Positions 1 to 15,809 of a DNA stretch of 64,000 nt are shown here, one piece after another. Both the position numbers and the translations under genes were made by a program. Source of the DNA: Pisaster brevispinus. Taxonomy: Eukaryota > Echinodermata > Asteroidea > Forcipulatida > Asteriidae. The notes under the pieces are model-generated. The model ran no database searches. It saw nothing but the letters and a program-made list of their open reading frames with translations, and was not told the DNA's origin. The stretch covers positions 1,961,698-2,025,697 of the forward strand of contig JAMKCF010000015.1 in assembly GCA_023634235.1 (NCBI GenBank), in the 5' to 3' direction. Each line of letters opens with the position of its first letter. Position 1 is the first letter of the stretch.

Positions 1-485
1 GGCTTGGTCTGTGACGACTTCTGGAATATTGACAATGCTAGAGTGGTCTGCAGACAGCTTGGATTTGAGTAAGACACCCTTCATTACTATGGGGGATATC
101 TACATTAAGCAACTCGGTCAAATGGGGTGGGGGAGGAGACTGGAAGTATAGGAGAGAAACAAATGAAGTTTAAGAATTTGAAAATCAGCTCAAAGCAATC
201 TGAAGATGCAAATTGGGTTGTGAATTTTGCTTCTAAATTATTATTATGATTTTTTTTAATGAAATGACAGTGATGCCTTGGAGGCGGTACCCAACGCTCT
301 GGAATATTTTGGCGGCGACATCTGGAAGAAACGGATCGTCATGGACAACGTGGAGTGCCGGGGGACTGAAGATGCCATCCAGATGTGTCCGTTTGATGGT
401 TGGGGAGTCCATAACTGTGCTGCGGAGATGGAGTCCGCCGGAGTGATCTGTACGCCACCAAGCATAGACCAACGCGTAAATCCAG
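1..485 (+). CDS. Exons 1-2: first SRCR domain (start cut by window edge)
   Basis: Exons 1-68 and 271-485 join in phase 2. The product reads [14 protein letters not shown], then [24 protein letters not shown] and AGVIC. These are hallmarks of a group A scavenger receptor cysteine-rich domain: the six-cysteine pattern, coded by two exons with an internal phase-2 intron. The N-terminal part of the domain lies before position 1. SRCR domains bind proteins or polyanionic ligands, often with calcium. The same two-exon layout recurs in the two later SRCR domains of this gene. The donor at 69-70 (GTAAGA) and acceptor at 269-270 fit consensus well. Confidence 0.9.
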
Positions 486-15400: not shown

Positions 15401-15809
15401 AACGTTACCATTATCCCACTTTGCAATGTCTCAGAAATGAGTTGGGTAAATATTTCTCACACTTTTTTTTTTCTTTTTCTCCCTCTGGCCAGGTGACAAC
15501 TATCCCAAGCTTCTCCAAGAAGCACGTGTTCCTCTTCTATCACGTTCAATCTGCACCAGCCGACGAGTCTACGGGTACAAACTGACCAATCAGATGATGT
15601 GTGCTGGCTACCTCAATGGGGGTATTGACTCATGTGACGGAGACAGCGGCGGACCGCTGGTATGCGAGTACCAAGGGGTGTGGCAGCTTGTTGGGGTGAC
15701 GTCGTGGGGGTCAGGGTGTGCCCAGCCTAACGCCCCAGGGGTGTACTCAAGGGTCAATCAGTTCCTGGATTGGATCAATGCCAAGCGGCAAACTGCACAA
15801 TGTCCGTGA
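1..15809 (+). CDS. Neurotrypsin-like mosaic serine protease (5' partial, 24 exons)
   Basis: Spliced CDS built from reading frames and GT-AG boundaries: 1-68, 271-485, 1089-1184, 2280-2558, 3207-3485, 3972-4244, 4659-4904, 5341-5481, 5610-5783, 6119-6250, 6369-6455, 6892-7140, 7980-8034, 8371-8447, 9034-9288, 9804-9941, 10045-10219, 10938-11116, 11576-11689, 12299-12443, 12948-13144, 14394-14580, 14704-14972, 15493-15809. The total of 4347 nt is 1448 codons plus TGA, with all phases consistent. Domain order is SRCR, linker, kringle x2, PAN x2, kringle, F-type lectin, LDLa, PAN, LDLa, SRCR, LDLa, SRCR, trypsin. Modules are bounded by phase-1 introns, the signature of exon shuffling. Kringle plus SRCR plus trypsin recalls vertebrate neurotrypsin (PRSS12), but PAN, LDLa and lectin modules are not part of that protein. 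It is probably a secreted or pericellular zymogen. The signal peptide and start lie upstream of the window. Substrate is unknown. Confidence 0.9.
486..2279. other. Introns 2-3 of the mosaic protease
   Basis: Apart from the short exon at 1089-1184, this 1.8-kb stretch is AT-rich intronic DNA. I see no domain, RNA gene or clear repeat in it. Confidence 0.6.
1089..1184 (+). CDS. Exon 3: short linker exon
   Basis: A 96-nt (32-codon) candidate exon with acceptor ...TGTTGTAG before it and donor GTAAAC after it. It is phase 1 at both ends, so it fits between the SRCR and kringle exons without disturbing the frame. Its product contains [18 protein letters not shown], an acidic, probably helical segment with no domain I recognise and no cysteine. 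It may be constitutive or a cassette exon. The support is boundary quality and phase only. Confidence 0.65.
2280..2558 (+). CDS. Exon 4: kringle 1
   Basis: A single phase 1-1 exon encodes a full kringle: [29 protein letters not shown] and a closing cysteine pair, giving the expected six cysteines. The DDD stretch keeps the Asp-x-Asp anionic centre used by plasminogen-type kringles to bind lysine side chains, so ligand binding is plausible. The acceptor is either at 2279 (better pyrimidine tract) or 12 nt downstream at 2291; both keep frame. The donor AAAG|GTGGAC is weak. Read-through would add 14 codons and end at TAG 2600-2602, so a truncated isoform is possible. Confidence 0.88.
3207..3485 (+). 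CDS. Exon 5: kringle 2
   Basis: A 93-codon phase 1-1 exon encodes a second kringle: [33 protein letters not shown] and SC. The six-cysteine kringle framework is intact. The usual NPDxD segment has become TVSEVN, so the Asp-x-Asp lysine-binding centre present in kringles 1 and 3 is lost. This kringle is therefore likely structural or has another ligand. Splice sites are TTTCAG and GTATGA. Confidence 0.9.
3972..4244 (+). CDS. Exon 6: PAN/apple domain 1
   Basis: A 91-codon phase 1-1 exon encodes a PAN/apple-type module. It has FQNAAIPG, the VEECARLCL segment with two cysteines, FECRSFDYY and RCWLSDEN, and ends FDFYERI. The four-cysteine spacing and the C-terminal DFYER motif match PAN domains of the hepatocyte growth factor/plasminogen N-terminal kind. 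Such modules mediate protein or carbohydrate contacts. The exon directly precedes a second, clearly homologous PAN exon, so tandem duplication is likely. Confidence 0.85.
4659..4904 (+). CDS. Exon 7: PAN/apple domain 2
   Basis: An 82-codon phase 1-1 exon. It reads [30 protein letters not shown] and QCWLSKA, and ends YDYYQR. It aligns motif by motif with the preceding PAN exon ([30 protein letters not shown]). The splice acceptor TTCTCCAG and donor GTAGTA are acceptable. Confidence 0.85.
5117..5245 (+). mobile_element. SINE family B tail fragment
   Basis: This piece of the intron before kringle 3 matches the tail region of the family B SINEs at 36.4-36.85 kb (CGAGTAAT, ATGCCT..GGATTTTTTT, AATATTCTTTATCCCTG). 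The tRNA-like head is absent, so it is 5' truncated. Confidence 0.6.
5341..5783 (+). CDS. Exons 8-9: kringle 3
   Basis: Exons 5341-5481 and 5610-5783 together encode a third kringle: [32 protein letters not shown] and VC. Unlike kringles 1 and 2 it is split by a phase-1 intron of 128 bp inside the domain, so it was probably recruited separately. The DSD segment keeps the Asp-x-Asp centre. A Pro/Thr-rich tail of about 18 residues follows, a likely O-glycosylated linker to the lectin domain. Confidence 0.9.
6119..7140 (+). CDS. Exons 10-12: F-type lectin (fucolectin) domain
   Basis: Exons 6119-6250, 6369-6455 and 6892-7140, all phase 1, encode about 155 residues (591-746 of the window protein). 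Diagnostic motifs are [53 protein letters not shown] and [10 protein letters not shown]. This is the F-type lectin fold of eel agglutinin and tachylectin-4. As I recall the family, fucose is bound by His-x26-Arg-x-Asp-x4-Arg. Here the His position is Leu633. Arg660 and Asp662 are kept, at exactly the 26-residue spacing, and the second Arg (666) is one residue early. Fucose binding may therefore be weak, changed or lost. Confidence 0.88.
6536..6672 (+). mobile_element. SINE family C, short copy
   Basis: It shares CTCGCCTTCCACCTCTRGGA, the B-box-like AGGTTTGAGTCCCGC and GGCTTCACAACCAGAA with the longer copy at 12.57-12.83 kb. The pol III B box marks it as tRNA-derived. It lies in intron 11 of the mosaic protease and ends in repeated AAATG. 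Confidence 0.65.
7217..7470. repeat. Two-copy tandem repeat rich in CACCAA
   Basis: Two diverged copies of about 109 bp each begin ACACCACTGGTG and contain AATTGGTGCT / AATTGGCGCT, TAATTGGA and GCACCAA. The rest of the stretch is CACCAA-rich and closes with GTGTGGTGTAGTTTGGTG, giving inverted-repeat potential. It is intronic (intron 12). Confidence 0.6.
7980..8447 (+). CDS. Exons 13-14: LDL receptor class A module 1
   Basis: Exons 7980-8034 and 8371-8447 are joined in phase 2. The product begins with a proline-rich EPPPPAT, then [23 protein letters not shown] and EDSSDEQGC. Six cysteines and the acidic calcium-binding box (NDC.D.SDE) are intact. It is the only LDLa of the three that is split by an intron. 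Confidence 0.88.
8154..8200. repeat. Near-perfect 19-bp inverted repeat (hairpin)
   Basis: Arms 8154-8172 and 8182-8200 are reverse complements except for one G-T position, around a 9-nt loop. GCTCT/GAGC can extend the stem after a small bulge. It lies in the intron inside LDLa module 1. It may be the remains of a small inverted-repeat element. Confidence 0.6.
9034..9288 (+). CDS. Exon 15: PAN/apple domain 3
   Basis: An 85-codon phase 1-1 exon with [35 protein letters not shown] and VHYERI. It follows the same plan as the two PAN exons upstream but lies between two LDLa modules, showing that modules were duplicated and interleaved. Acceptor TTGACAG and donor GTACGT are good. Confidence 0.85.
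9419..9479. repeat. 22-bp tandem repeat, three copies
   Basis: The unit CAATCAGGGAGATYTTGTAY occurs at 9419, 9441 and 9463 with 22-bp spacing. It is an intronic minisatellite. Confidence 0.7.
9804..9941 (+). CDS. Exon 16: LDL receptor class A module 2
   Basis: A 46-codon phase 1-1 exon encoding [19 protein letters not shown] and GDFTDEQEC. All six cysteines and the calcium-binding acidic residues are present. Confidence 0.88.
10045..11116 (+). CDS. Exons 17-18: SRCR domain 2
   Basis: Exons 10045-10219 and 10938-11116 join in phase 2. The product reads [57 protein letters not shown] and AGVVC. This is a complete six-cysteine group A SRCR domain. The second exon is strikingly similar to the first SRCR domain of the gene (the GWG.HNC motif is shared). 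Confidence 0.92.
11291..11410. repeat. 62-bp tandem duplication
   Basis: ACAAGTAATCAAT recurs at 11291 and 11353. Both copies run through TCATGAGAAGCRATGC, TAAGCAGG and AATATTCATCAG. Intronic. Confidence 0.7.
11576..11689 (+). CDS. Exon 19: LDL receptor class A module 3
   Basis: A 38-codon phase 1-1 exon encoding [22 protein letters not shown] and GDDTDEQQC. It is a complete LDLa with six cysteines, lying between the last two SRCR domains. Confidence 0.88.
12299..13144 (+). CDS. Exons 20-21: SRCR domain 3
   Basis: Exons 12299-12443 and 12948-13144 join in phase 2. The product reads [58 protein letters not shown] and VGVEC. It is a canonical six-cysteine SRCR domain, the nearest to the protease as in neurotrypsin. 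The intron between the halves carries a SINE. Confidence 0.92.
12575..12832 (+). mobile_element. SINE family C, long copy
   Basis: A-box-like GTAGTGGTACC and B box GGTTCGAATCCCGC lie about 50 bp apart, with a body of about 170 bp ending TTCACAACCAGAATAAA. Related to the copy at 6.54-6.67 kb. It is inserted in the intron of the last SRCR domain, in the same orientation as the gene. Confidence 0.7.
13889..14248 (-). mobile_element. SINE family A (tRNA-Leu-derived)
   Basis: On the minus strand it starts with a tRNA-like head (GGCCGAGCGGATAAGAGC, GGACTCAAG, GGTTCGAATCC) and ends with a (TAA)n-like tail at 13889. The CAA-type anticodon region and long variable arm suggest tRNA-Leu. The body contains CTTGAGCAAGACACTTAACC, shared with the copies near 15.03, 25.25 and 35.4 kb. 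It lies in the intron before the protease domain. Confidence 0.8.
14394..15809 (+). CDS. Exons 22-24: trypsin-type catalytic domain
   Basis: Exons 14394-14580, 14704-14972 and 15493-15809 encode the S1 peptidase domain. The activation cleavage is NTR|IIGGS, preceded by a cysteine (GSCG) that would tether the propeptide. The catalytic triad is His about 1250 (SAAHC), Asp about 1298 (NNDIAV) and Ser about 1395 (GDSGG). Asp1389, six residues before the Ser, predicts cleavage after Arg/Lys. The domain ends with LDWIN and TGA at 15807-15809. Introns fall just after AAHCFQ (phase 2) and GWGNT (phase 1), the same positions as in the minus-strand protease at 56-62 kb. Confidence 0.95.
15030..15375 (+). 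mobile_element. SINE family A, second copy
   Basis: A tRNA-Leu-like head (GTCGTGGCCGAGCG, GGACTCAAGCTC, GGGTTCGAGTCC) is followed by the shared TTAAGCAAGACACTTAA body. It continues with AAAAGAACCCAGTTACACTT and GTTTCTGGCAGCGGCTGCC, a 3' part different from the 13.9-kb copy. It is inserted in the intron before the last exon of the protease. Confidence 0.75.

Follow-up and report, generated by a model that had tools for sequence, protein, structure and literature searches.

A probable mosaic trypsin-type protease gene with an F-type lectin fold in Pisaster brevispinus

When a lectin domain and a trypsin-type protease share one polypeptide, does sugar binding switch the enzyme on, or do other modules set its place and its activity? 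A locus of the sea star Pisaster brevispinus raises this question. It lies on contig JAMKCF010000015.1 of GenBank assembly GCA_023634235.1, in a stretch of 64,000 nucleotides (positions 1,961,698 to 2,025,697 of the forward strand; hereafter the window). Bases 1-15809 of its plus strand hold a mosaic reading frame that ends in a trypsin (S1) domain. The original prediction for this DNA saw in the frame a single recognition-plus-protease chain, functionally like a lectin paired with a MASP protease. Our analysis weakens the lectin claim, adds a claim of docking by a kringle, and treats the mosaic frame as likely one gene. We give a probability of roughly 0.55 to the reading that this is the 3' part of a gene for a mosaic trypsin-type zymogen, predicted to be secreted, held at a surface or in the matrix, and activated by cleavage after Arg1172. 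It would be a relative in kind of the insect proteases Tequila and Sp22D, with the front half replaced or extended.

Reading frame, exons and modules

The protein is known from genomic DNA alone, with exon limits set by eye on the sequence and then joined by script. We placed 23 exons, which give 4,239 nt after splicing and 1,412 residues; the single frame of the original prediction stands, and its count of 24 exons does not. From base 1 onward no stop interrupts the frame before a TGA at 15807-15809. All donors (22 of 22) are GT, all acceptors (22 of 22) are AG, and the phases are consistent. Pfam matches occur along the whole frame, which rules out a chance frame.

From the 5' edge to the stop, the modules follow the order SRCR-KR-KR-PAN-PAN-KR-FLD-LDLa-PAN-LDLa-SRCR-LDLa-SRCR-S1 (KR, kringle; FLD, F-type lectin-fold domain), so that thirteen binding modules precede the protease. 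Eight pieces, which jointly cover all 1,412 residues, were searched with Pfam, and each of the SRCR, kringle, PAN, LDLa, F5/8 type C and trypsin families passed its curated cut-off in the pieces that hold it. In the last piece, two SRCR and two LDLa modules lie as separate stretches and each family was scored jointly. The module set is the one first proposed (three SRCR, three kringles, three PAN, an F-type lectin, three LDLa and a trypsin domain with an intact triad), and Pfam confirms it, with matches in the Protein Data Bank (PDB) as the ground for the F-type name of the lectin. Local alignments between modules of one kind give identities of 36-64%.

All of these modules are on the plus strand. 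SRCR 1 (exons 1-2, 1-485; Pfam SRCR E 1e-19) is cut by the 5' edge of the window. It begins at position 21 of the Pfam profile and lacks the first 20, which indicates that the gene continues upstream. Kringle 1 (exon 3, 2292-2558; E 5.9e-24) and kringle 2 (exon 4, 3207-3485; E 3.2e-20) come next, followed by PAN 1 (exon 5, 3972-4244; E 2.8e-13), PAN 2 (exon 6, 4659-4904; E 7.3e-12) and kringle 3 with a Pro/Thr-rich linker (exons 7-8, 5341-5783; E 1.2e-17). The lectin-fold domain occupies exons 9-11 (6119-7140). Behind it are LDLa 1 (exons 12-13, 7980-8447; E 4.2e-13), PAN 3 (exon 14, 9034-9288; E 8.4e-10), LDLa 2 (exon 15, 9804-9941), SRCR 2 (exons 16-17, 10045-11116), LDLa 3 (exon 18, 11576-11689) and SRCR 3 (exons 19-20, 12299-13144). 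The joint scores are E 3.5e-17 for LDLa 2 and 3 and E 3.2e-57 for SRCR 2 and 3.

Introns between modules are in phase 1 in every case (13 of 13), and each of the three SRCR modules is split by a phase-2 intron whose position agrees to about one residue. Phase-1 module borders together with a shared intron place within the SRCR modules are the pattern expected from exon shuffling. The mosaic gene thus has two exons per SRCR module, in contrast to the expanded SRCR genes of sea urchins, which have one exon per domain (PMC10855680).

Protease, kringles and lectin fold

The S1 domain (exons 21-23, 14394-15809; Pfam E 2.4e-71) has its top PDB scores with factor XI (E 6e-56) and plasma kallikrein, among the best 60 of 558 matches. 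Its catalytic triad is intact, with His1214 (14567-14569), Asp1262 (14834-14836) and Ser1359 (15645-15647), as is a trypsin-type pocket of Asp1353, Gly1380 and Gly1390 (D/G/G). These residues were assigned by the usual protease numbering. The activation site reads INTR1172/IIGG, with the slash at the cut and the Arg codon at 14441-14443; it is not of the furin type. One cysteine precedes the site (Cys1160) and another lies within the S1 domain (Cys1286), at the positions where related enzymes link their two chains.

These features suggest how the protein may work. The zymogen, predicted to be secreted, would be held on a surface or matrix through its kringles and its SRCR, LDLa and PAN domains, and cleavage after Arg1172 would switch the protease on. 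The module chain would then remain tied to the enzyme by a disulfide, so that binding by the modules could position the active enzyme.

Among the binding modules, kringle 1 is the candidate dock with the best support. Compared at seven lysine-site residues of plasminogen kringle 4, it keeps six, with K35 replaced by Val. Kringle 3 keeps four (DxD and two Trp, with the Arg lost) and kringle 2 keeps two. The clear expectation is that kringle 1 binds exposed lysines in the manner of plasminogen kringle 4.

The lectin-fold domain aligns with the F-type lectin MsaFBP32 (PDB 3cqo, E 1.2e-27) and with eel agglutinin (1k12, E 1.1e-13). We call it an F-type lectin fold because of these matches; Pfam names the same domain F5/8 type C (E 1.4e-15). 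It shares the fold family with those lectins and keeps eel Arg79, Asp81 and Arg86 as Arg624, Asp626 and Arg630, with a deletion of one residue. The cation motif hhDGx is also present (AVDGN, residues 581-585). Unlike eel agglutinin, the domain is attached to a protease, has Leu597 (6244-6246) in the aligned place of His52, and lacks the CysCys pair. The cation motif and the fucose motif of F-type lectins, a His followed by R-x-D-x4-R/K, are described in PMC5712786, where the gap between the His and the rest is printed as 24; eel agglutinin agrees with a gap of 26 and not with one of 24. With a gap of either 24 or 26, the fucose motif has no match in the domain.

Changes to this motif may signal another specificity or a loss of sugar binding, and one MsaFBP32 domain likewise lacks the CysCys pair, yet keeps the basic triad (PMC5712786). 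In our view the fold here is less likely to read fucose than to bind proteins or membranes, or to have an altered specificity. The loss of both the His and the CysCys pair does not favour activation triggered by sugar, and fucose-triggered activation was rejected as the leading model because the fucose motif is absent. Of the recognition-plus-protease chain first proposed, the multi-module mosaic protease is what survives, and the sugar-binding trigger loses favour.

Mosaic relatives and competing readings

The nearest counterparts in layout are insect proteases. The Tequila of Tenebrio, SerP55, is tabulated with CBM(3), LDL(3), SRCR(2), PAN and a trypsin pocket (PMC11172050), and exons 12-23 of the sea star gene, its last seven modules, give the same counts without CBM: three LDLa, one PAN, two SRCR and S1. 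The DGG pocket is shared with the Tequila/Graal/Sp22D (Scrasp1) proteases. SP23 of Apis, tabulated as 4LC-4CBD-SR-Clect-KR-LDLA-PA-2LDLA-SP (PMC1761132), also resembles the mosaic protein: its LDLa-PAN-LDLa run is preceded by an SRCR, a lectin (C-type) and a kringle. The likeness is one of architecture, in module counts and pocket. The front halves differ: the insect proteins carry chitin-binding modules, whereas the visible front here is SRCR-KR-KR-PAN-PAN-KR-F-lectin, and Pfam found no chitin-binding module in the visible 1,412 residues, beyond which the 5' end of the gene lies. By comparing the protein with neurotrypsin alone, the original prediction missed this closer kind.

The wider claim, that no protein with this module order had been described, holds within the literature searched: we found no description of the exact order among the open-licence PMC papers listed, nor a paper there that treats neurotrypsin together with an F-type lectin. 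The kit of binding modules and protease was already known, from SerP55 and SP23. F-type architectures are, moreover, much expanded in hemichordates and cephalochordates (PMC5712786, citing Bishnoi et al. 2015). F5/8 type C ranks in the top five of the domains that most often accompany SRCR in proteins of sea urchin and crown-of-thorns starfish (PMC10855680), which means that a lectin-like fold next to SRCR is nothing rare in these animals.

Kringles or PAN/apple domains also stand before S1 in plasminogen, HGF, factor XI and plasma kallikrein, and PAN 1 and PAN 2 match the PDB sequences of plasminogen and HGF weakly. To our knowledge none of these four proteins has SRCR, LDLa or an F-type lectin.

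Several points weigh against a surface-held relative of Tequila and Sp22D. The start of the seven-module block was our choice, and the whole frame has three PAN and three SRCR. The Tenebrio table shows counts and not order (PMC11172050), and Apis SP23 is listed with one SRCR (PMC1761132). The 5' end of the gene is outside the window, and a signal peptide, a membrane anchor or chitin-binding modules, if the gene has them, would be there. A full lysine site is missing in two of the three kringles, and kringle 1 itself is without K35. The lectin fold may still bind sugar in an altered way. Finally, self-activation is an inference: enzyme crowded on a surface could cut itself, since the pocket prefers Arg or Lys and Arg is the last residue before the cut.

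A somewhat unlikely alternative, though the strongest of them, is a non-immune protease of the neurotrypsin (PRSS12) type, acting in tissue remodelling or in neural tissue, whose modules would place the enzyme in the matrix or at synapses to cut one or a few matrix substrates. Neurotrypsin has a Pro-rich N-terminus, a kringle, three or four SRCR domains and S1, with a predicted furin-type activation site. It thus shares kringle, SRCR and S1 with the mosaic protein, and SRCR 3 matches a solved neurotrypsin SRCR (PDB 6h8m) at E 1.9e-30. Tequila has been termed a neurotrypsin ortholog in the literature and affects long-term memory. The SRCR match is unspecific, however: single domains of DMBT1 come to 1.4e-28, and chains with many SRCR domains, CD163 among them, have higher total scores. 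The PAN, LDLa and F-lectin modules are foreign to the neurotrypsin layout, and INTR/IIGG differs from its predicted furin site. Plain membership of the neurotrypsin family was rejected on the extra modules and the missing furin site. Among sea cucumber SRCR sequences, ten fall in a neurotrypsin clade, and the other domains of the SRCR proteins there are too varied for classification (preprint PMC13228809).

Less probable again is a single-chain equivalent of a lectin/MASP pair, whose lectin domain would bind microbial or altered-self sugars, activate the protease and start an immune cascade. The sequence does support the F-type fold, which still has its cation motif and two of its three basic residues. 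Such a chain can exist: horseshoe-crab factor C joins CCP, EGF, LCCL and C-type lectin domains to S1 (PMC10090249). Together with Apis SP23 (PMC1761132), it also means that a lectin and a protease in one chain had been described earlier. Tequila and its mosquito orthologue rise upon immune challenge, but disruption of Tequila leaves the survival of bacteria-infected flies unaltered (PMC2685406), and mosquito SP22D binds chitin, not bacteria (PMC1761132). The sea star domain itself has a Leu for the fucose His and no CysCys pair.

The MASPs of the lectin pathway carry CUB-EGF-CUB-CCP-CCP ahead of S1. In the visible part of the mosaic protein, Pfam gave no match at E 0.001 to CUB, EGF, CCP, LCCL or C-type lectin domains, which sets it apart from the MASP layout and, apart from the shared lectin-plus-S1 chain, from factor C.

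A second protease gene in the window bears on a further possibility. It lies on the minus strand at 56346-62069 and has five exons (62069-61947, 61468-61324, 58631-58430, 57744-57458 and 56713-56346), which encode a protein of 374 residues with a Pfam trypsin match at E 4.3e-49. The protein has a hydrophobic, signal-like N-terminus, a short basic pro-region, a furin-type site (RFRR/VVGG) and an S1 domain; no accessory module was found in it. Aligned over 236 residues, the S1 domains of this protein and the mosaic one agree at 118 (50% identity), and three introns at or in S1 have equal phases and, by alignment, matching places in the two genes. The minus-strand protein looks like a paralogue of the mosaic protease without the accessory modules. 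Cysteines of this protein align with Cys1247 (exon 22) and Cys1411 (exon 23) of the mosaic S1 domain. We take these two to be without a partner among the usual S1 pairs, and they may perhaps tie down the C-terminal tail by an additional disulfide.

We regard it as quite doubtful that the two genes form a two-enzyme sensing locus. The mosaic protein would dock by kringle 1, its SRCR modules and a re-purposed F-type lectin fold and activate itself when crowded, and the furin-activated paralogue some 40 kb away would supply free activity. If true, this would be the first F-type lectin fold, within the literature searched, to aim a protease.

Between the two proteases lie pieces of a ZSWIM8-like gene (about 21500-33900, minus strand) with a SWIM zinc finger, ZSWIM8 TPR repeats and a ZSWIM4-8 C-terminal domain. 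Matches to ZSWIM/SWIM families came from four of seven open frames given to Pfam, out of 206 open frames. A tRNA-like GTGTCGTGGCCGAGCGGAT box with up to three mismatches occurs at 14224-14242 (minus), 15031-15049 (plus) and 25260-25278 (plus), against a mean of 0.00 in shuffles. The first two are in introns of the mosaic protease gene and perhaps belong to a tRNA-derived repeat, and the third is within a tRNA-Leu. A second tRNA-like box is found at 6588 and 12621, each time in an intron. Tandem arrays span 18501-19001 (98-base unit), 23768-24168 (25) and 31942-32533 (44).

The weakest alternative divides the frame into two or more adjoining genes, or blames an assembly join, for example between a kringle/PAN/lectin protein and an LDLa/SRCR protease. 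Two such genes would fuse in frame, since their module exons have phase 1 in common. The donor of exon 3, which ends kringle 1, is also poor (AAG/GTGGAC, 90th percentile of 947 GT sites in 1-16000), and readthrough past it meets a stop at 2600-2602, followed by an AATAAA at 2857. That donor was retained because the exon 4 donor likewise directly follows the last kringle cysteine; the donors of exons 1 and 20 score below it, and those of exons 9 and 19 slightly above. AATAAA or ATTAAA occurs at 17 intron places, which makes the one at 2857 unremarkable. A crude scan of the introns looked for ATG exons that resemble a signal peptide and end in a phase-1 donor. It found none at strict thresholds, although just 9 of the 22 donors in the gene itself score high enough for the strict donor limit. 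When that limit is lowered to admit all 22, one intronic ATG candidate appears, and four do with a laxer hydropathy limit; by inspection, none resembles a signal peptide. With a single strand throughout and phase carried across 22 introns, several genes in place of one are very improbable. The poor exon 3 donor, the readthrough stop and the AATAAA at 2857 also outline a possible short isoform that stops after kringle 1.

What the mosaic gene may mean

The surface-held zymogen related in kind to Tequila and Sp22D thus remains our preferred reading. It carries a caution: sugar binding should not be concluded from a lectin fold drawn in an architecture diagram. If the frame is a single gene, it would also raise the question of whether sugars are still what lectin folds recognise in proteases of this type, or whether the folds now serve other ligands. 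It would further suggest that evolution retained a Tequila-like protease tail and exchanged the recognition front half, with chitin-binding modules in insects and kringles, PANs and an F-type lectin fold in the sea star. The locus would then offer a simple test case of modular evolution.

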